A stretch of 64,000 bases of DNA from Bacteroidota bacterium (GTDB lineage: Bacteria > Bacteroidota > Bacteroidia > B-17B0 > Aurantibacillaceae): positions 1 to 64,000 of the forward strand of contig JABDCR010000008.1 in assembly GCA_013288015.1 (NCBI GenBank), given 5' to 3'. The position numbers were made by a program, and so were the translations under genes. Of this stretch, positions 8,228 to 62,120 are shown piece by piece; the stretch's first letter is position 1, and each line of letters begins with the position of its first letter. The notes below the pieces were generated by a model. That model was not told the DNA's origin. It was given only the letters and a program-made list of their open reading frames with translations, and searched no databases.

Positions 8228-8527
8228 TTATTTTTTTTTCTTTTTTTCTTTTAAGAAAGCCATTAGGCCATTGTTTACTTTGGTAAGTAAAGCTACTTGC
8301 TGTCGCAGGTGTTCGATTTCTTTATGCAGAGGATCGTACTCGTTGGCGAGTTTGTAATCGATTTTTAGTTTTAGTTTTTTTATTTTTTCTTTAAATACGG
8401 GTTTTATAATTTCTTGTTTGTAGAGGTTATACAATTGTCCGCGCGATATGCCGGTTATATCAATTACCTCATCGATGGTGTAGCTGCTAAAATCAACAGC
8501 TTGTTTGAAAATTTCGCCTTCTCTCAT
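8228..8527 (-). CDS. Small HTH/coiled-coil protein
   Basis: TIDEVIDITGISRGQLYNLYKQEII HTH-like segment followed by a coiled coil. Confidence 0.6.
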   Translation of the reverse strand: MREGEIFKQAVDFSSYTIDEVIDITGISRGQLYNLYKQEIIKPVFKEKIKKLKLKIDYKLANEYDPLHKEIEHLRQQVALLTKVNNGLMAFLKEKKKKK

Positions 8528-8545
8528 GATAGTTGTTTTGATTAT

Positions 8546-9637
8546 TTAATTGTTGTTATTTAATATATATATGTTAGCACTGCTGCAATTGTTACAGTTG
8601 GGTGTGTTGCTGTTAAAGCCACGACTTTCGCCGGGGTTAAGCTCATTATCATCAACTACATAAATTTTGTTGGCTTTGATGATTTGGTTTTTTGGGTTTG
8701 TGTATTTTATTTCGGCTTCGATAAATTTAACGGGATAGCCCGCATTGTTTTTAACTACACCCGTGCCCAGTACACTACCATTATTTATACGGTACTGCCA
8801 ATCGACAATTTGAAGGTTATTGGGAAGATCTTCCAGCGCTTCGGTTTTTTGGAGGTCGGTGGCATCGGTGGGAAAAAGAATTTTACCATCGTGAATGATG
8901 AGCAAGTTATAAGTGTCGATTATTTTATATTGGTCGTAATTTTTTTGTACCACTACGCCTACTTTTTGACTAAGCCAAGCACCTTTATTGTTGTGCCCGC
9001 TTATGTTGGCATACACAATATATTGGTTGTTACTTGCACGCTTTATGTTTTGTATGCTATAATGGGCAATTTTTGGGAATATGCTTTGACTGGTTTCTGT
9101 TATATAATTTGCCTGGGTTAAGTTACTATCTATATCGCCGGCCTGCACGCTGTTTAAAAACTGACGGGCAATTGCCTCTTCGCCATAAATGTATTTGGGC
9201 ACTATGTATAAATAGCAGGTTAAACAAATTAGCATGACGAACAACATAATGATTGCCGAAGCCATTTGTAATTTTTGTTTGGTTGATGCTTCAAAGCTTA
9301 ATGCATCCTGAGTTTGGTCGCCTAAAAGTTTTTGTTTTTGTCCGTCGAACTCCTCGTCGGTTAAAATGCCATCTTTACGCAGTTGGTTTAGTTTTTCTAA
9401 CTGGGCAATGGTGTTGGTGTTTATATTGCTTTCGACCTGGCTAAGTTTTTTTTGTTTTTTTATGGCCCGAATAAATAAAATTATCCAACCTAAGATTGTC
9501 CAGCCAAGTAATAGATTGAGGAAAAAATATTTTAATACATGGTGCTTTTTACGTGCCAGAATGGTTGGCAAAAAATAAATTACCAACGACACCAGCAGTG
9601 CTACAAAAAAAACTATCCAAGCGCTTGGTTTAATCAT
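8546..9637 (-). CDS. Superinfection-immunity-like TM domain + SHOCT-like motif + FxLYD-like C-terminal domain protein
   Basis: N-term IYFLPTILARKKHHVLKYFFLNLLLGWTILGWIILFIRAIKK; SHOCT-like AQLEKLNQLRKDGILTDEEFDGQKQKLL; third TM; C-terminal VKNNAGYPVKFIEAEIKYTNPKNQII. Confidence 0.7.
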   Translation of the reverse strand: MIKPSAWIVFFVALLVSLVIYFLPTILARKKHHVLKYFFLNLLLGWTILGWIILFIRAIKKQKKLSQVESNINTNTIAQLEKLNQLRKDGILTDEEFDGQKQKLLGDQTQDALSFEASTKQKLQMASAIIMLFVMLICLTCYLYIVPKYIYGEEAIARQFLNSVQAGDIDSNLTQANYITETSQSIFPKIAHYSIQNIKRASNNQYIVYANISGHNNKGAWLSQKVGVVVQKNYDQYKIIDTYNLLIIHDGKILFPTDATDLQKTEALEDLPNNLQIVDWQYRINNGSVLGTGVVKNNAGYPVKFIEAEIKYTNPKNQIIKANKIYVVDDNELNPGESRGFNSNTPNCNNCSSANIYILNNNN

Positions 9638-9649
9638 TACTTTGCGCGT

Positions 9650-10033
9650 TTACTTGCCATCGTTAGTGGCAGTTTTAACTTTAAAGGTTGTATCCATTAC
9701 CAACATTTGCCAGCTTTTTGTGCTAGCGTTTATTGATTTGTTTATATAATTGATAACGTAGTATTTTGTTTTAGGTGATGCAAGCAGGGTGCTGTATTTT
9801 TTTTGATTTGCTACGGTATCGTTTTTTAATAATAACTGACGCTGCGTTTCGGCTATTTGGCGTAAAATATCATCGGCATAATCAATAACGCTATCGAGTT
9901 TACTAAACTCAATATTTTGTGCATCGTTAATTTTTAAATAGGCCTGGGCGGCCTGCATAACTTTATCTTTATTGGTTATGGGTTTGCTGCAAGCAAAAAC
10001 GAAAAGAGATAGTATTAGGATAGTTTTTTTCAT
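9650..10033 (-). CDS. Small lipoprotein, paralogue of the next gene
   Basis: MKKTILILSLFVFACSKPITNKDK lipobox-like N-terminus. Confidence 0.7.
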   Translation of the reverse strand: MKKTILILSLFVFACSKPITNKDKVMQAAQAYLKINDAQNIEFSKLDSVIDYADDILRQIAETQRQLLLKNDTVANQKKYSTLLASPKTKYYVINYINKSINASTKSWQMLVMDTTFKVKTATNDGK

Positions 10034-10046
10034 ATGGCTAATGTAG

Positions 10047-10538
10047 TTAATTGGTGTCGATTATTTTAAAAGTGGTATCCATTTCGTAATTAATGGTGTT
10101 TCCTTCAAGGATGCCCTGTTTGTTTTTTGCCTGGTGTTTATCGCTTATGTAATAGTGTTTTTCTTTTGGGCTTGCTAAAAGGGTGTTTAATTTATTTTGA
10201 TATTGGATAAGTTTGTCTTTAAATTTTGTGCTGTTGGTATCGTTTTTTTGAGGAGGAATGCCCATTTGACTAAGCTGAGTCCGGATGGCAGACTGAACGC
10301 TATCGGCCTGATGTTCTATTAAAATGGCTTCGCGCAGGTCTTCTATTTGTATATCGAGGGTATCGGGGTACTCGTAAGCGCTATCTAATTTGCCGTACTT
10401 TATATTTTGGTAACTATCGGGATAAGGGAAATTAGTTTTTACGTACTGTTGAATGGATAGAATGGCTTTGTCGCGATTGCCGGTTGGTTTGCTGCATGCC
10501 ATTATAAAGACAGATAATAATAGGATGACCTTTTTCAC
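10047..10538 (-). CDS. Small lipoprotein
   Basis: MKKVILLLSVFIMACSKPTGNRDK; same layout as the 9650 protein. Confidence 0.7.
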   Translation of the reverse strand: MKKVILLLSVFIMACSKPTGNRDKAILSIQQYVKTNFPYPDSYQNIKYGKLDSAYEYPDTLDIQIEDLREAILIEHQADSVQSAIRTQLSQMGIPPQKNDTNSTKFKDKLIQYQNKLNTLLASPKEKHYYISDKHQAKNKQGILEGNTINYEMDTTFKIIDTN

Positions 10539-11183: not shown

Positions 11184-12641
11184 TTAGTATACAAAAACTC
11201 CATCATCTTCATCGCTATGTGAGCCTAAAAGATAAGTTGGTTTCTCGTTACCAAAGCGATAAAAGTTGTAATCATCTACAAAGGCGTAGCAGAGAAAGTA
11301 GCGAGTTAGGTCGATAAAATGCCCGAAGGGTTGATAGGTTTTACCGGTATCTTTATCTCTTATGGTTTGTTTATCAATTTTTCCGTTGGCATCCTCTTGG
11401 GCGTTTTCAAAATCCCTGATAGTTGTTTTGCAAGATTGGTTTACAAAAAAATGCAGGTCGTTAAAATTTTCTTCGAGCACGGTATTAAAAAAATCCAATG
11501 ACTGACGAACGGATGGATGTGATTTCAATACACGCAATTCGGGATTAAACTGCCGTAGCTCGTGTTGCATAATAAAAAACAAATGCTCGCCTGCTTGCAG
11601 TTTTACATCTTCTTTTTGTGATGCCGGGTCGCCATAGAGATACATTTTCTCGCGATGGTGACGGTAACGCCGTTTAATTTCATTGGCTACCCAGGAAGTT
11701 TTATTGTTTGGGTGATGCGCGGCAATTTCATCAATCAAATAAATATTTTTATCATCTACCTGAAAAATGCCGCAGGGAAAATATGGGTTTACGTTTTCAT
11801 CGAAACTTATATGCAATGCTAAATTTGGGTTGTAGGCATAATGCCCCACATGTTTTTCAAACTTAAAACATTTTAAAACCTCGCCCCCGCTTATGCGTTT
11901 GCCCCACAAACCTAAGGTGTACACCTGATAGTAATAAGGGTTGGTGGCCTTATAACTTTCGTGCCTGGCAATGCGCGCCTTGCTGCAATGCGTTAAATTA
12001 TTGTGGTAGGTGGTGTGGGTAGCGGTTATGCTGCGGTAATAAGTACTGCCATCGGGCATGGTGTAGGCCATGTTATCGGTAAAACTATATTCATTTTTTG
12101 GGATGTGGCGGGCAAAGTAATTTTTGTAGAGCCAAAAATCTTTATAATCGCCAAGGCACTCGGGGTTAAAAGAAAACCACTCTTGCACATCGCCAAAATT
12201 ATTGCGCAGGGTTGTGGAGGCAATTATGTAATCAGCCTCGCTTAGCTGGTTACCCTCTTCGTACCAAGCGCAACTTGGGTTGCTGATAGATTTTAGTTTG
12301 CCCGCATCATCGCAACCACGCGCCAAAAATTTGTTGCCGTTAAAACAATGTATTTCTAAAGGTTGTTGTTTAAAGGTAAAGAGGTGGTCGATTTTCCACT
12401 CGGTGCAAATATCTTTTATTAATTGCCACTGACTATCTTTTATACTTTCAAATGTTTTTTTAAACAGAATGCAACGAAAATATTTTTGCTGCAGACAATC
12501 TAAAATTAATTTTTGTGCAATGAAGTAGGATTTGCCACTATCTCTGCCACCCCACAAAAAATTGAGGCTTGCCTTGCTGTGCAATAGCGGGCGGTAGCAG
12601 GGCAGAAACATATCCTCCGCTATTTGCAGGTTTACATGCAT
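11184..12641 (-). CDS. Phage terminase large subunit (PBSX/Terminase_3-like)
   Basis: Walker A-like WGGRDSGKSYFIAQK, ATPase-like CAWYEEGNQLSE, nuclease-like HISFDENVNPYFPCGIFQVDD and YLYGDPASQ. Confidence 0.85.
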   Translation of the reverse strand: MHVNLQIAEDMFLPCYRPLLHSKASLNFLWGGRDSGKSYFIAQKLILDCLQQKYFRCILFKKTFESIKDSQWQLIKDICTEWKIDHLFTFKQQPLEIHCFNGNKFLARGCDDAGKLKSISNPSCAWYEEGNQLSEADYIIASTTLRNNFGDVQEWFSFNPECLGDYKDFWLYKNYFARHIPKNEYSFTDNMAYTMPDGSTYYRSITATHTTYHNNLTHCSKARIARHESYKATNPYYYQVYTLGLWGKRISGGEVLKCFKFEKHVGHYAYNPNLALHISFDENVNPYFPCGIFQVDDKNIYLIDEIAAHHPNNKTSWVANEIKRRYRHHREKMYLYGDPASQKEDVKLQAGEHLFFIMQHELRQFNPELRVLKSHPSVRQSLDFFNTVLEENFNDLHFFVNQSCKTTIRDFENAQEDANGKIDKQTIRDKDTGKTYQPFGHFIDLTRYFLCYAFVDDYNFYRFGNEKPTYLLGSHSDEDDGVFVY

Positions 12642-46019: not shown

Positions 46020-46201
46020 AGTAGGGATTGAAACGAAAACTCGCAGTTTGCAAATAAAGATTTCTCAGTCGTGCCTTCTTCGAAATGACAAACGCGAATA
46101 AATGCGTTAGGGATTGCAACGAAAAGCTTTTTGCTGTAATCAGTAAAAACTTGCAGTGTAAAGCCCGACGGCGCGTGTTTACAAAGCGCCGGAACGTCCT
46201 G
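46020..46201. repeat. Dispersed hairpin repeat, copy 2 (long form)
   Basis: aaataaagatttctcagtcgtgccttcttcgaaatgaca...gcgttagggattgcaacg...cccgaCGGCGCgtgtttacaaaGCGCCGgaacgtcct. Confidence 0.88.
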
Positions 46202-50846: not shown

Positions 50847-52595
50847 TTAAACTGCTGTTTTTATTTCATTTAATTTGTCAACCAAGTCCTTTGGGAATAT
50901 ATTTAATTTTCTTAATGCTTTAAATAAGGTCGAAAAATTAATTAATGTACTTGAAAAAATTTGGTTGTAAACTTCATTAATAATCGTTTTACCACGTCGT
51001 GAGATTAACCATTTTGGATATAACAATACTACTCCATTTGTAAATGTTATTTGCACTCTTTCTGTTTCCTTCAACTGATCAAAGTCAGAGAAATAGTCTT
51101 TCAACTTTGGTTCTATTGCATTAATCATTGTATCAGCAACTAACTGCAAAGTTTCACTTGAAAGTGATTTTAATTTATATTCTTCTCCAATTGTTAATCT
51201 TAGTCCTTCAATTATTGGGTGTTTTTCTTTATCGATTAGAGTAGCATAAACTAAAATAGGATCTGCTAAATAATTTTCTATACTATACCTATCTATTTTG
51301 TAGACACCTTTTGAGACAACATTACCACTATCAGCATCTATAAGTCCTTGTAAAATGTTTACCATTCCAGATTCTTGTAGTTTATTAACCCAATTTTGAA
51401 CAACATCTTTTCCGCCTGAATTATCTTTTGTTGATGCAGGTATAAAAACTAAAGGAATATCTGCATCAATAAGATTTTCAGATCTTAATTGATCATATAC
51501 ATATGAATAAAACTTAACATCATCGTTATCTTCGACGAGAAAATACTTTGTTCCCTCACCAACATACACTAACCCTGCTGTTAATAATGAAACAGAATGA
51601 TTTCTTGACGGAGATTTTCTAATACGAGGAACAAGTCTTGACATTTCATATATTGATTCATCTGGAGCAAGAATAACAGTTGAAGGAGAATGAGTTGTCA
51701 TAATTACTTGAACTCCAAACTTATCCACCAGTACATTTTTTATAACATTTAAGAATTGTTGCGACATGGAAGGATGGAGATGTGCATCAGGTTCATCTAA
51801 TAATAGCAATTTCGGAAATGTTTTTTTTTCTTGAGAGTTATACAGATAGAATACAAGTGCAATTAAAACCCTTTCTCCAGAAGATAAATCATTAAAATCT
51901 ATCGGTTCTTTTAATACTTGATGAGTTAGCACCAATTTAAAACCATCTCTTATGCCATTAGTTGAAGGGTCATTAATATCAAATGGAAGTTTAGATTCTT
52001 TAATAATGTCTCTGAGAACAACCCAAGGTTTTTCTCCAATTTCTTTTTGTATTTCTTCTTTTGGTTTATTTTTTGCCTGTAATTCTATCTCTGATAATCT
52101 ATAGTTATAGAAAATTTCACCGATCTTTTGACTTAGCTGGCTTTCTTGTTCAATTAATATTTCAGGAAAATATTCGTCAAATTCTTCTTTAGTTATCTGA
52201 TTTGGAGATTTACCAATCTTACTTAAAACTTCTTCATATGCTGCATAAATTTTAATTTGACCTTCTATTCCTCCTTGATTTCTATAATTATTCTCATTCT
52301 TAAAATTATTATAATGTTGATCTCTTTCTCGTTGTATCGTTGATAGATTAATATTGGCTGTATTTACAAGTTGCCATTCACCTTTCAAATAAATGACTTC
52401 ATCTTTTTTAATTGTTTGACCAACCATAGAAACTCTTTCGGTTGTTCCGCGTTTATTTATAAGTGTATTATAAATTAAATCTAACAATTGCGATTTTCCT
52501 GTTCCGTTTGGCCCAGTAATTACAACAAAATTAGGGATTTCGAACCAATCAAAATCGGTTATTGATTTATATTTACCTTTAAAATGTATTTCCAT
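50847..52595 (-). CDS. AAA/ABC-type ATPase with C-terminal DUF4435/TOPRIM-like region
   Basis: Walker A VITGPNGTGKSQ, signature LSSGERVLIAL, Walker B LLLLDEPDAHLHPSM; C-terminal LVEDNDDVKFYSYVYD, LIDADSGN, KIDRYSIENYL. Confidence 0.85.
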   Translation of the reverse strand: MEIHFKGKYKSITDFDWFEIPNFVVITGPNGTGKSQLLDLIYNTLINKRGTTERVSMVGQTIKKDEVIYLKGEWQLVNTANINLSTIQRERDQHYNNFKNENNYRNQGGIEGQIKIYAAYEEVLSKIGKSPNQITKEEFDEYFPEILIEQESQLSQKIGEIFYNYRLSEIELQAKNKPKEEIQKEIGEKPWVVLRDIIKESKLPFDINDPSTNGIRDGFKLVLTHQVLKEPIDFNDLSSGERVLIALVFYLYNSQEKKTFPKLLLLDEPDAHLHPSMSQQFLNVIKNVLVDKFGVQVIMTTHSPSTVILAPDESIYEMSRLVPRIRKSPSRNHSVSLLTAGLVYVGEGTKYFLVEDNDDVKFYSYVYDQLRSENLIDADIPLVFIPASTKDNSGGKDVVQNWVNKLQESGMVNILQGLIDADSGNVVSKGVYKIDRYSIENYLADPILVYATLIDKEKHPIIEGLRLTIGEEYKLKSLSSETLQLVADTMINAIEPKLKDYFSDFDQLKETERVQITFTNGVVLLYPKWLISRRGKTIINEVYNQIFSSTLINFSTLFKALRKLNIFPKDLVDKLNEIKTAV

Positions 52596-52680: not shown

Positions 52681-52780
52681 GCGTTAGGGATTATAGTGGA
52701 AAGCCCACAGCACGTAATCGGGCGAGGACTTGTAACGGAAAGCCCGACGGCGCGTGTTTACAAAGCGCCGGAACGCCCTG
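52681..52780. repeat. Dispersed hairpin repeat, copy 3
   Basis: gcgttagggatt...gggcgaggacttgtaacggaaagcccgaCGGCGCgtgtttacaaaGCGCCGgaacgccc. Confidence 0.88.
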
Positions 52781-54748: not shown

Positions 54749-55039
54749 TTAATCAACAATTAGTTTTTTTATCATCTCTTCAACAGCCGGATAAATAAAG
54801 CTGTACACGTTTTTTTTGCTTTGAGGGATGTCGGACTCTTCTAATCCGTAAAAATAAATTATGGTTTCGGGCACTTCGAGTGCGCGGCAAATTTTTTGAA
54901 GGTTTTTTTGACTGGGTCTTTTTATACCTTTTTCGATTTGCGAAATAGATGTTTGCGAAATAACGGTTAGTTTTGATAAATCGCCTTGGGTAAGTTCTTT
55001 ACCGGTTCGTATTTTTTTTATTGCAACGCCTATATTCAT
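54749..55039 (-). CDS. XRE-family HTH regulator
   Basis: IKKIRTGKELTQGDLSKLTVISQTSISQIEKGIKRPSQKNLQKICRAL. Confidence 0.93.
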   Translation of the reverse strand: MNIGVAIKKIRTGKELTQGDLSKLTVISQTSISQIEKGIKRPSQKNLQKICRALEVPETIIYFYGLEESDIPQSKKNVYSFIYPAVEEMIKKLIVD

Positions 55040-55599: not shown

Positions 55600-55749
55600 A
55601 GTTCGTGTTTGTAAATAAAGATTTCTCAGTCGTGCCTTCTTCGAAATGACAAACGCGAATAAATGCGTTAGAGATTGCAACGGAAAGCTTTTTGGTAATC
55701 CGAAAACTTGCAGTGTAAAGCCCGACGGTGGTAAACCACCGGAACGCCC
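55600..55749. repeat. Dispersed hairpin repeat, copy 4 (long form)
   Basis: gtaaataaagatttctcagtcgtgccttcttcgaaatgaca...cccgaCGGTGGtaaaCCACCGgaacgccc. Confidence 0.88.
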
Positions 55750-57993: not shown

Positions 57994-58737
57994 TTAATTA
58001 ATAATTTCGCCTTTGTTGTTGGCTAGTTTTTGACGCCATTGTTGAATTTGCTCGGGTGTTTGTTTTAGCCACTCAGTTACTTCGCCAATTATTTTTAAGG
58101 ATGCTGTGGTGCGATAGGAACGTGTTGGGTTACCCGGAAATTTTTTATCGGTAACGTTGGGGTCGTTTTCAAAACTGCCGGTTGGTTCAACAATATAAAC
58201 ATGTTCGGCGCCATCGCCTTTGGCAAGTGCGGCGGCAAGCCCTGCACCATTAACCAGTGCGGTAAAATAAATGTGATTCATTACCAGGTTGGCTTTGTAG
58301 TTAGATTTTGCCCCTACCGTTAATAAATCGCCAATTTGCAAGGCTGCTTTTGTGCCATGATAAAAAGGACCTTTATCGCTTGGCGCGGCGGCGGGCGATG
58401 CTGCTAATTCGTAATTAATTTTTGCTTCTTGGTGGTTGCCCAACTCTTCATAACATTTGGCGCGGTCTACATACAGCGCAGGTAAAGCACTATGAACAGA
58501 ATCATCATTTATTTTTAAGGCAAGCTGCAAGGTTGTTTCTATCCATTTTAATTTATTGGCAGTGTTGCTTTGATGGCGGCTTACATAATAAGCGGCAATA
58601 AATTTTTCGAAATCGGCGGTGGCCTTGTGCCATGCCTGCATAAATAATTTGCTTGCTTCCTGGGGTTTGTTATTTGCCTCCATGTCCATTGCCTGAAGAC
58701 ATAGTTTAACAACAGGGTTACTTGGGTCGAATGCCAT
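57994..58737 (-). CDS. arr: Rifampin ADP-ribosyltransferase (Arr-like) with TPR-like N-terminal extension
   Basis: FYHGTKAALQIGDLLTVGAKSNYKANLVMNHIYFTA...VYIVEPTGSFENDPNVTDKKFPGNPTRSYRTTASLKIIGEV. Confidence 0.85.
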   Translation of the reverse strand: MAFDPSNPVVKLCLQAMDMEANNKPQEASKLFMQAWHKATADFEKFIAAYYVSRHQSNTANKLKWIETTLQLALKINDDSVHSALPALYVDRAKCYEELGNHQEAKINYELAASPAAAPSDKGPFYHGTKAALQIGDLLTVGAKSNYKANLVMNHIYFTALVNGAGLAAALAKGDGAEHVYIVEPTGSFENDPNVTDKKFPGNPTRSYRTTASLKIIGEVTEWLKQTPEQIQQWRQKLANNKGEIIN

Positions 58738-59585: not shown

Positions 59586-59732
59586 GCGATTTTTGCAGAT
59601 GCAACCACCGTTTATAATTTAAACGCATTATCAGGTTTTAATAATCGCAGTCATATTTTAGCTGCCGGATATGCGATACAAGAACCATCACCAAACAACT
59701 GGGGTGCAAAAATACAATATCAATCTGCCTGA
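59586..59732 (+). pseudogene. Headless ORF fragment upstream of a phage-like gene
   Basis: AIFADATTVYNLNALSGFNNRSHILAAGYAIQEPSPNNWGAKIQYQSA* with no start, preceded by an in-frame TAA. Confidence 0.35.
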
Positions 59733-60420
59733 TTTAATTACTATAGATACCAACCAAAAAGCGGCGGATATAAACGTGCCTATTTTGCGGCAGCCAAAAT
59801 TTATGGCTTTGTTATTAGCTTATTTAAGTCCGACACAAAAACTGCAAAACGATATATCAAATAATTATTTAGGCAATTTAACTTATGCTGCTTATGCAAG
59901 TGGAACGACTTATAATTTTGGTGATAGAGTAACCTATGGCATCGCATCCTACGAGTATATAAATACTGTTTCGGGTTCGGGTAATTTACCAACTAATATT
60001 AATTATTGGTATAAAATAGCAAATGACAATATTGGCTTAAGCGAGCGATTAAATTACAATTGCCAAACAATGGAGTTAGAATTTATTTTGAATAGACGCT
60101 TTAATACTATTAGTAGCATTTATCCGCCTTATAATTCTATTGCAGGAAACATATATATAGTAACTAACCCAAGTTTACCACGCATTGCCTGGTTAGGCAG
60201 AAACAATGCTGTAAGCTCATACGTAAAAACAAAAAGCTCTACAAAATTTAATTATCACCCCAAAGCACTTAGCAGTTTAGGCTCAAATAATTATACTATT
60301 TGGGTGCCTGGTGAATTAATAACTCCTTTAGGTGGGCTCTCAATTTACCAGCAAGTAATTATAAACGAGGTAAATAAATACAATGCAGTAGGTTTAACAT
60401 TTGATATTGCTCCTTATTAA
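59671..60420 (+). CDS. Phage-structural-like protein with CBM5/12-like motif (start uncertain)
   Basis: YAAYASGTTYNFGDRVTYGIASYEYINTVSGSGNLPTNINYWYKI. The first ~25 codons overlap the fragment above, so the true start may be downstream. Confidence 0.5.
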   Translation: MRYKNHHQTTGVQKYNINLPDLITIDTNQKAADINVPILRQPKFMALLLAYLSPTQKLQNDISNNYLGNLTYAAYASGTTYNFGDRVTYGIASYEYINTVSGSGNLPTNINYWYKIANDNIGLSERLNYNCQTMELEFILNRRFNTISSIYPPYNSIAGNIYIVTNPSLPRIAWLGRNNAVSSYVKTKSSTKFNYHPKALSSLGSNNYTIWVPGELITPLGGLSIYQQVIINEVNKYNAVGLTFDIAPY

Positions 60421-60459: not shown

Positions 60460-60962
60460 ATGAAAAATTTTACAATTTCTTTATTGCTTTTTATTTCAGT
60501 AAATTGTTTTGCTCAAATACCAAATGCAGAAATTGATAGTATAAGACCCAACGTGATTTGCTATAATGAAACTGTTAAGTTTTATGCCCATTTTACAGGC
60601 ACTTGGGGCGCCACAAATAACGCTCCAATAAAGGATAGCTTAAGCAGTTTTAATAAAAATATTACCTATCAGCATGGGTAGATAGTAATTTTATTGTATC
60701 TATAATAATTTATACTTCTGATTTAACTGTTGGTACTCATAAAATATACACTCCATCTTCTACCGGTTTTCGTGCGGTAAACCTAACAGTAAACAACTGC
60801 ACCTATGCTATAGAGCATTACAACAGCCAAGAAGATTTACTGAGCACGCAATATTATAATTTACTTGGGCAGTCTGTAAAAGAACCTGATGGTGTTACTA
60901 TTGAGGTTAAAACTTATGTTGGCGGGCAACGTGAGGTTAGGAAAATTGTAACGAGTAAATAA
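60460..60962 (+). pseudogene. Frameshifted exported protein
   Basis: 60460-60681 ends ...KNITYQHG*. The other frame continues AWVDSNFIVSIIIYTSDLTVGTHKIYTPS...YYNLLGQSVKEPDGVTIEVKTYVGGQREVRKIVTSK* to 60962. Confidence 0.6.
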
Positions 60963-60964
60963 GC

Positions 60965-61135
60965 ATGGAGATTTTATTAATACTTGTAGTACTACTTATT
61001 TATTTTTTACCTACTATAGTAGTTGGCAAAAAAACGTTTGCCATGCAAGTTTTTTTGCTTAACCTTTTTTTGGGCTGGACTTTTTTAGGTTGGGTTATTG
61101 CGCTTGTGTGGGCTGCTAAAAAAGAGGATAGATAA
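60965..61135 (+). CDS. Superinfection-immunity-like small membrane protein, tandem copy 1 (not in ORF track)
   Basis: MEILLILVVLLIYFLPTIVVGKKTFAMQVFLLNLFLGWTFLGWVIALVWAAKKEDR*. Confidence 0.8.
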   Translation: MEILLILVVLLIYFLPTIVVGKKTFAMQVFLLNLFLGWTFLGWVIALVWAAKKEDR

Positions 61136-61150
61136 TAAAAAATAAGTACT

Positions 61151-61327
61151 ATGGATATCAGTATGGCTGCGGGAAGCGCATTATTGTTTTTTCTTTACTT
61201 TTTACCTACGGTTGTGGCTTGGAAAAAAACGTTTGTGATGCAGGTGTTTTTACTAAACTTTTTACTTGGCTGGACTGTTTTGGGTTGGATTATTGCCCTT
61301 ATATGGGCTGCTAAAAATGAAAACTGA
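61151..61327 (+). CDS. Superinfection-immunity-like small membrane protein, tandem copy 2 (not in ORF track)
   Basis: MDISMAAGSALLFFLYFLPTVVAWKKTFVMQVFLLNFLLGWTVLGWIIALIWAAKNEN*. Confidence 0.8.
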   Translation: MDISMAAGSALLFFLYFLPTVVAWKKTFVMQVFLLNFLLGWTVLGWIIALIWAAKNEN

Positions 61328-61337
61328 TAAAATAAAC

Positions 61338-61514
61338 ATGGAAGGATTTTTAATAATGCTAGTTTTAGGGCTAGCCATTTATTTTTTACCCAGTATTGTA
61401 GTTGGCAAAAAATCGTTTGCGTTGCAAGTGTTTTTGCTTAACCTTTTACTTGGCTGGACTTTTTTAGGCTGGGTTATTGCCCTTGTGTGGGCTGCTAAAA
61501 AAGAGGATAGATAG
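61338..61514 (+). CDS. Superinfection-immunity-like small membrane protein, tandem copy 3
   Basis: MEGFLIMLVLGLAIYFLPSIVVGKKSFALQVFLLNLLLGWTFLGWVIALVWAAKKEDR*; the listed ORF start at 61266 lies inside copy 2. Confidence 0.8.
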   Translation: MEGFLIMLVLGLAIYFLPSIVVGKKSFALQVFLLNLLLGWTFLGWVIALVWAAKKEDR

Positions 61515-61550
61515 TTTGCTTGTGGGTGATAACACCCGCAAGGGTGGAGT

Positions 61551-61979
61551 TTATATTTTTGTTGGCTTTGAAAAGTACAGGCCAATGGGGAAAAAAATAA
61601 ATAACGAAAGTACAAATGCCATAACTTCAAATACAATCGTCAACATATCTCCTCCGGCGAAAGCAGATAAAAACCAATTAAATGTATAAGGCACAAAAAT
61701 GTAAGATAATATACTATCGAATTTAATTGCTTGAATTGAAACAAAATATCCAACAAAATTACCTATTATGAAATACGATACTGCAATCATTAATGTAATT
61801 CTTTTGGCCTTATTTTTATTAAACTTTATTTTGTCAGAGTATAGTAAAGAAAATAATAAAGCAATTAGTCCAATTAAAATTATTATAGGCTGCCAACTTA
61901 TATCGGTAATTAACCAAATTAGTGAAAGCAATATCCCAATGACAGTAAATATTATTTGTCCTTGTTTTCTTGTAGTCAT
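61551..61979 (-). CDS. Multi-TM hypothetical protein
   Basis: Four hydrophobic segments; intact ORF. Confidence 0.6.
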   Translation of the reverse strand: MTTRKQGQIIFTVIGILLSLIWLITDISWQPIIILIGLIALLFSLLYSDKIKFNKNKAKRITLMIAVSYFIIGNFVGYFVSIQAIKFDSILSYIFVPYTFNWFLSAFAGGDMLTIVFEVMAFVLSLFIFFPIGLYFSKPTKI

Positions 61980-62021
61980 GAAGTAATTTTTTAGTTTTTA
62001 AATGTACAAAATTGCTTTGTG

Positions 62022-62120
62022 TTGCGTTAGGGATTGTAACGGAAAGCTTTTGCGGTAATCAGCAAAACTTGTAGTGTAAAGCCCGACGGTGCGTGTTTAC
62101 AAAGCACCGGAACGCCCTAA
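62022..62120. repeat. Dispersed hairpin repeat, copy 5
   Basis: gttgcgttagggattgtaacggaaagc...cccgaCGGTGCgtgtttacaaaGCACCGgaacgccctaa. Confidence 0.88.

Follow-up and report, generated by a model that had tools for sequence, protein, structure and literature searches.

A tandem trio of predicted small membrane proteins of the Imm superinfection-immunity family in a Bacteroidota chromosome

The trio and its genomic surroundings

Three short open reading frames (ORFs) follow each other on the forward strand of the window—the whole 64,000-nucleotide stretch of DNA analyzed here—and are separated by 15 bases (copies 1 and 2) and 10 bases (copies 2 and 3; Table 1). On the DNA level, they form a direct repeat of 154 nt in three copies with 73–88% identity to copy 1; on the protein level, identity to copy 1 amounts to 62% for copy 2 and 84% for copy 3. 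Three consecutive ORFs of 56–58 amino acids had been claimed in an earlier note on this DNA, and all of them are indeed present as one repeat family, with copy 3 appearing in the program-made ORF list as an 82-aa ORF that starts with TTG at 61266. Judged from their sequences, they most likely form a small operon kept on the chromosome of a Bacteroidota host, encoding three paralogs from the T4 Imm family that would reside in the inner membrane.

Table 1. Features of the window that are referred to in the text, in order of position.
Feature	Positions	Strand	Description
Flavo-1-like core sequence	about 8184	+	
Cassette	8228–10538	−	Two lipoproteins, PF14373-SHOCT protein, HTH gene
Fourth PF14373 member	8546–9637	−	363 aa: PF14373, SHOCT and a long C-terminal part
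Terminase large subunit	11184–12641	−	Lone phage gene beside the fourth PF14373 member; PHROG 3717, 128.6 bits
Flavo-1 RNA (RF01705)	46096–46174	+	
moaB-like gene	49880		Synteny probe
PARIS-like candidate defense gene	50847–52595	−	582 aa: AAA ATPase and DUF4435-like part; PADLOC fused AriAB model, 95.9 bits
Flavo-1-like core sequence	52681–52750	+	
XRE-type HTH protein	54749–55039	−	Full-length match to PADLOC HTH_VI (retron type VI, 71 bits); no reverse transcriptase noticed nearby
Flavo-1-like core sequence	55665–55728	+	
TPR-Arr protein	57994–58737	−	TPR-like N-terminus and rifampin ADP-ribosyltransferase (Arr-ms) domain, 156.6 bits
Gene with marginal matches	59671–60420		PHROG E = 0.004, CBM_5_12 E = 0.007, nothing stronger
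Frame-broken gene	60460–60963	+	Split over two frames; type IX secretion C-terminal sorting tail (by eye)
Copy 1	60965–61135	+	56-aa PF14373 protein, two TM helices predicted
Copy 2	61151–61327	+	58-aa PF14373 protein, two TM helices predicted; most diverged of the trio
Copy 3	61338–61514	+	58-aa PF14373 protein, two TM helices predicted; AlphaFold2 helical hairpin, pLDDT 95
Likely intrinsic terminator	61517–61558	+	Follows copy 3
Gene beside the trio	61551–61979		Synteny probe
Flavo-1 RNA (RF01705)	62019–62092	+	

A single base separates the stop codon of the frame-broken gene from the ATG of copy 1, and the likely terminator after copy 3 consists of a 10-bp stem (CTTGTGGGTG/CACCCGCAAG) that is followed by a T-rich stretch (−20.2 kcal/mol, z −3.3). 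A Bacteroidota-type promoter (TTG...TAnnTTTG) was not found in 59.3–61.6 kb with the patterns used. The earlier description of the block as sitting beside phage-like and frameshifted genes is accurate for the frameshifted neighbor, whereas the phage-like character of the surroundings is weak and comes down to the marginal matches listed in Table 1.

The contig is chromosomal. Its part left of 50.8 kb bears genes for ureide degradation, T9SS-sorted proteins, and molybdopterin synthesis—assigned by eye, with the T9SS tail Pfam-checked in one gene. The part from 50.8 to 64 kb is A+T-richer (G+C 0.339 versus 0.379) and holds the PARIS-like AriAB gene, HTH genes (Cro/C1-like), and the TPR-Arr protein. 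Genes for integrase, portal, or capsid proteins were not recognized near the trio, which can hence not be called phage- or prophage-encoded; a prophage reading was rejected on the same grounds. The gene beside the trio is unique to the window genome within the genus and the moaB-like gene has a different neighbor in genome G004, which marks the region as variable. With these two synteny probes, a clean empty site for the trio region was not obtained in the genus.

Family membership and predicted structure

All three copies match the PF14373 (Imm_superinfect) profile, with 44.0, 51.7, and 46.7 bits for copies 1, 2, and 3, respectively, at a curated cut-off of 27.9 bits, and the alignment spans profile positions 1–41 of 42. 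PHROG 1039, "immunity to superinfection," likewise matches all three (53–58 bits). T4 Imm itself (from AF158101) scores 58.7 bits against PF14373 and, thus, falls inside the same family. The assignment of the trio to PF14373 is well supported: the profile search confirms the membership proposed in the earlier note, and the structure prediction agrees with it.

T4 Imm (gene imm, 83 aa, AF158101 26373–26624) and the trio are both small hydrophobic proteins of similar size that share the core YxLP...W(S/T)xxGWxxxxxW(A/S). The trio proteins are shorter, however, and carry LGW where T4 Imm has FNW. Unlike T4 Imm, they are encoded by three tandem copies at a site of a bacterial chromosome where a prophage is not evident. 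Close homologs of the trio were found neither among named phages (50,697 records) nor among plasmids (72,556 records; tblastn, E ≤ 0.01 for both), an exact 25-base pattern of copy 3 is absent from IMG/VR, and PADLOC 2.0.0 holds no defense model that matches copy 3 or the 363-aa PF14373 member.

For copy 3, AlphaFold2 predicts hydrophobic helices at residues 2–15, 17–22, 28–38, and 42–52 (pLDDT 95.3) from an input alignment of 60 sequences, all of them family members. We read this model as a two-pass hairpin that would be kinked at the conserved P18 and at G39-W40. The two-helix hairpin of PF14373 is, thus, present in the model, for which a membrane location is predicted. Y15, P18, N35, G39, W40, and W45 are invariant across the 60-sequence alignment; T4 Imm, which is absent from it, deviates at some of these six residues. 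In Foldseek, four of the five viral structure matches carry superinfection-immunity names with a probability of 1.00, at E-values of only 0.02–0.05, the best one being a protein of Serratia phage PS2 (TM 0.87/0.88). Neither a sequence-profile search nor a fold search gave a match in the PDB. Since the AlphaFold2 alignment was built from family members, the fold match does not count as evidence separate from that of the sequences.

Divergence and selection of the copies

Over a 40-codon core, dS amounts to 0.79 between copies 1 and 2, 0.37 between copies 1 and 3, and 0.55 between copies 2 and 3. The corresponding dN/dS values are 0.20, 0.21, and 0.34—exact ratios that are rough due to small counts and A+T-rich composition. 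Fisher tests show a synonymous excess for each pair (p = 0.0004, 0.005, and 0.02 in the same order). The copies diverged long ago yet are held under purifying selection. A dS of about 0.4–0.8 makes the trio too old for an assembly duplicate, which argues against an assembly artifact. Relaxed selection, named in the earlier note as an outcome that would speak against its proposal, is not seen: dN/dS of 0.20–0.34 together with the significant synonymous excess argues against it. The same ratios led us to reject diversifying selection. Of the suggestion that local amplification with divergence reflects selection for dosage or diversity, the amplification with divergence, hence, stands, and selection for diversity gives way to purifying selection. 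As reasons for keeping three copies, dosage and division of labor both fit; positive selection for diversity does not.

Relatives in phages and within the genus

A tree of 181 domains—weak, as it is based on 61 columns—groups the trio with two same-genus members of the SHOCT type (98/70, loosely supported). Together, they join a phage clade (98/82) that comprises the viral contigs L117, L118, L178, and L121 plus an Algoriphagus gene (L057). T4 Imm sits far from the trio clade on a very long branch (2.24). The nearest phage relative, L117, is a 57-aa protein on the 157-kb viral contig IMGVR_UViG_3300007735_000803, which resembles the trio by 61% identity, equal length, and stand-alone architecture. 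It differs by its single copy, its viral contig, and its neighborhood: the gene comes just after two clamp-loader-family genes (PHROG 168, 266 bits; PHROG 225, 78 bits) and an exonuclease family gene. T4 imm, for its part, adjoins gene 43 (DNA polymerase), in a DNA replication cluster continuing with regA, 62, 44, and 45.

The two same-genus proteins, namely the fourth PF14373 member of the window and L005 in genome G003, share about 50–57% domain identity and a genus-level branch with the trio. Unlike the trio, they bear a SHOCT domain (just below the Pfam cut-off in the G003 copy) and reside in a lipoprotein–HTH cassette. This cassette looks mobile; in G003, it lies by exopolysaccharide genes. 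Around the terminase gene beside the fourth member, other phage genes were not recognized.

Within Bacteroidota, PF14373 is found in 50 of 396 genomes, the window genome included, and in 2 of the 100 nearest relatives; among the six other genomes of the genus, a single one carries the family, in the form of the PF14373-SHOCT protein. The distribution is patchy on both levels. None of the 49 other Bacteroidota carriers has neighboring copies, as multiple copies lie far apart or on different contigs. Among 195 loci with recognized members (three of them the trio), adjacent copies occur only in the window and in Granulicella S156 (L105), as judged from one genome per species and flanks of 1.5–4 kb, which more distant second copies would escape. 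Tandem PF14373 copies are rare, and the triplication described here is both real and rare.

Cellular members of the family and alternative explanations

In Acidobacteria, panB lies directly upstream and on the same strand in 12 of 17 PF14373 loci (e.g., L075, L091, and L097; panB and panC identities were Pfam-checked in one acidobacterial locus each). In Dehalococcoidia, cobalt-transport genes are found near the PF14373 gene in 5 of 10 loci. Both groups look vertically inherited, and fusions with SHOCT, zinc-ribbon-like, and TPR-like tails can be made out by eye in the family. The conserved link to panB is an unexplained tie of the family to pantothenate synthesis. A survey of Acidobacteria came across Imm_superinfect genes that were not part of intact prophages and put forward that hosts keep them for immunity (PMC5900883). 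Like the trio, these are host-chromosomal PF14373 genes that need not lie within an intact prophage (PMC5900883); unlike it, they are usually single, many of them beside panB, with one Granulicella genome bearing an adjacent pair. Since the family also holds vertically inherited cellular members, PF14373 membership does not prove superinfection exclusion.

The trio might, hence, be part of a cellular PF14373 branch whose role lies in housekeeping or in the envelope, such as that of a small membrane scaffold or stress protein, with a name taken over from T4 but no shared function. The vertically inherited members, the fusions, and the purifying selection on the trio are in line with this explanation, which we regard as possible but rather unlikely: the Bacteroidota distribution is patchy, viral contigs occur in the sister clade of the trio, with T4-like replication genes on one of them, and a core function would not be absent from five of six same-genus genomes, several of them more than 90% complete.

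Alternatively, the three genes could be moron genes, a cargo left over from a prophage or mobile element that has decayed; they would have been duplicated in the course of this decay and have little function now, as the frame-broken neighbor, the solitary gene for a terminase large subunit next to the fourth member, and the A+T-rich variable region with its Cro/C1-like HTH genes might suggest. Three intact frames and a significant synonymous excess at dS of 0.37–0.79 speak against decay of this kind, nor were integrase, portal, or capsid genes recognized near the trio, which makes this origin improbable. Small hydrophobic immunity proteins are common and contact-dependent toxins have tandem immunity-gene arrays, but an antidote against a toxin or bacteriocin rather than a phage is a very remote option here, as a toxin gene was not recognized beside the trio and the family link runs to phage proteins.

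A possible barrier to phage DNA entry

T4 Imm reportedly keeps phage DNA from entering the cell, and it protected wild E. coli hosts in a phage accessory gene screen (PMC12373910; see also PMC11436027). By homology, we favor the interpretation of the trio as an Imm-like barrier that the host has retained against incoming phage DNA, with a probability of roughly 0.55; from the sequences, a superinfection-immunity function is plausible. It is supported by PF14373 in all copies and T4 Imm in the same family, by the phage matches in Foldseek, and by dN/dS of 0.20–0.34. The phage-borne sister clade, with L117 placed beside clamp-loader genes much like T4 imm in its replication cluster, the patchy occurrence in the genus, and the PARIS-like AriAB gene 8 kb away point in the same direction. 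Against it speak the long branch of T4 Imm, the 61-column tree, the chromosomal members with conserved nonphage neighbors, and the lack of both a PADLOC model and a close homolog in named phage or plasmid records.

In such a scenario, a single-copy gene of presumably phage or mobile origin would have been duplicated twice in tandem. Extrapolating from T4 Imm, each protein would insert into the inner membrane as a two-helix hairpin, and the proteins—either assembled into an oligomer or through a change at the contact site between phage tail and inner membrane—might stop DNA from crossing into the cytoplasm. Dosage, or targets that differ slightly between the copies, may be what has preserved all three. 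A more specific version, in which three specialized paralogs act as a host-owned anti-phage entry barrier, either as a hetero-oligomer or with a phage range that differs per copy, is doubtful. To our knowledge, no Imm-type system has been tested in Bacteroidota.

For the family as a whole, many genes that bear the annotation "superinfection immunity protein" look like cellular genes passed on vertically, and the automatic name, hence, needs caution. If the trio does block phage DNA entry, it would be an example of a superinfection-immunity locus domesticated on the chromosome of a Bacteroidota bacterium, would account for the persistence of such phage genes in their hosts, and would offer a case where dosage could be tested by varying the copy number.
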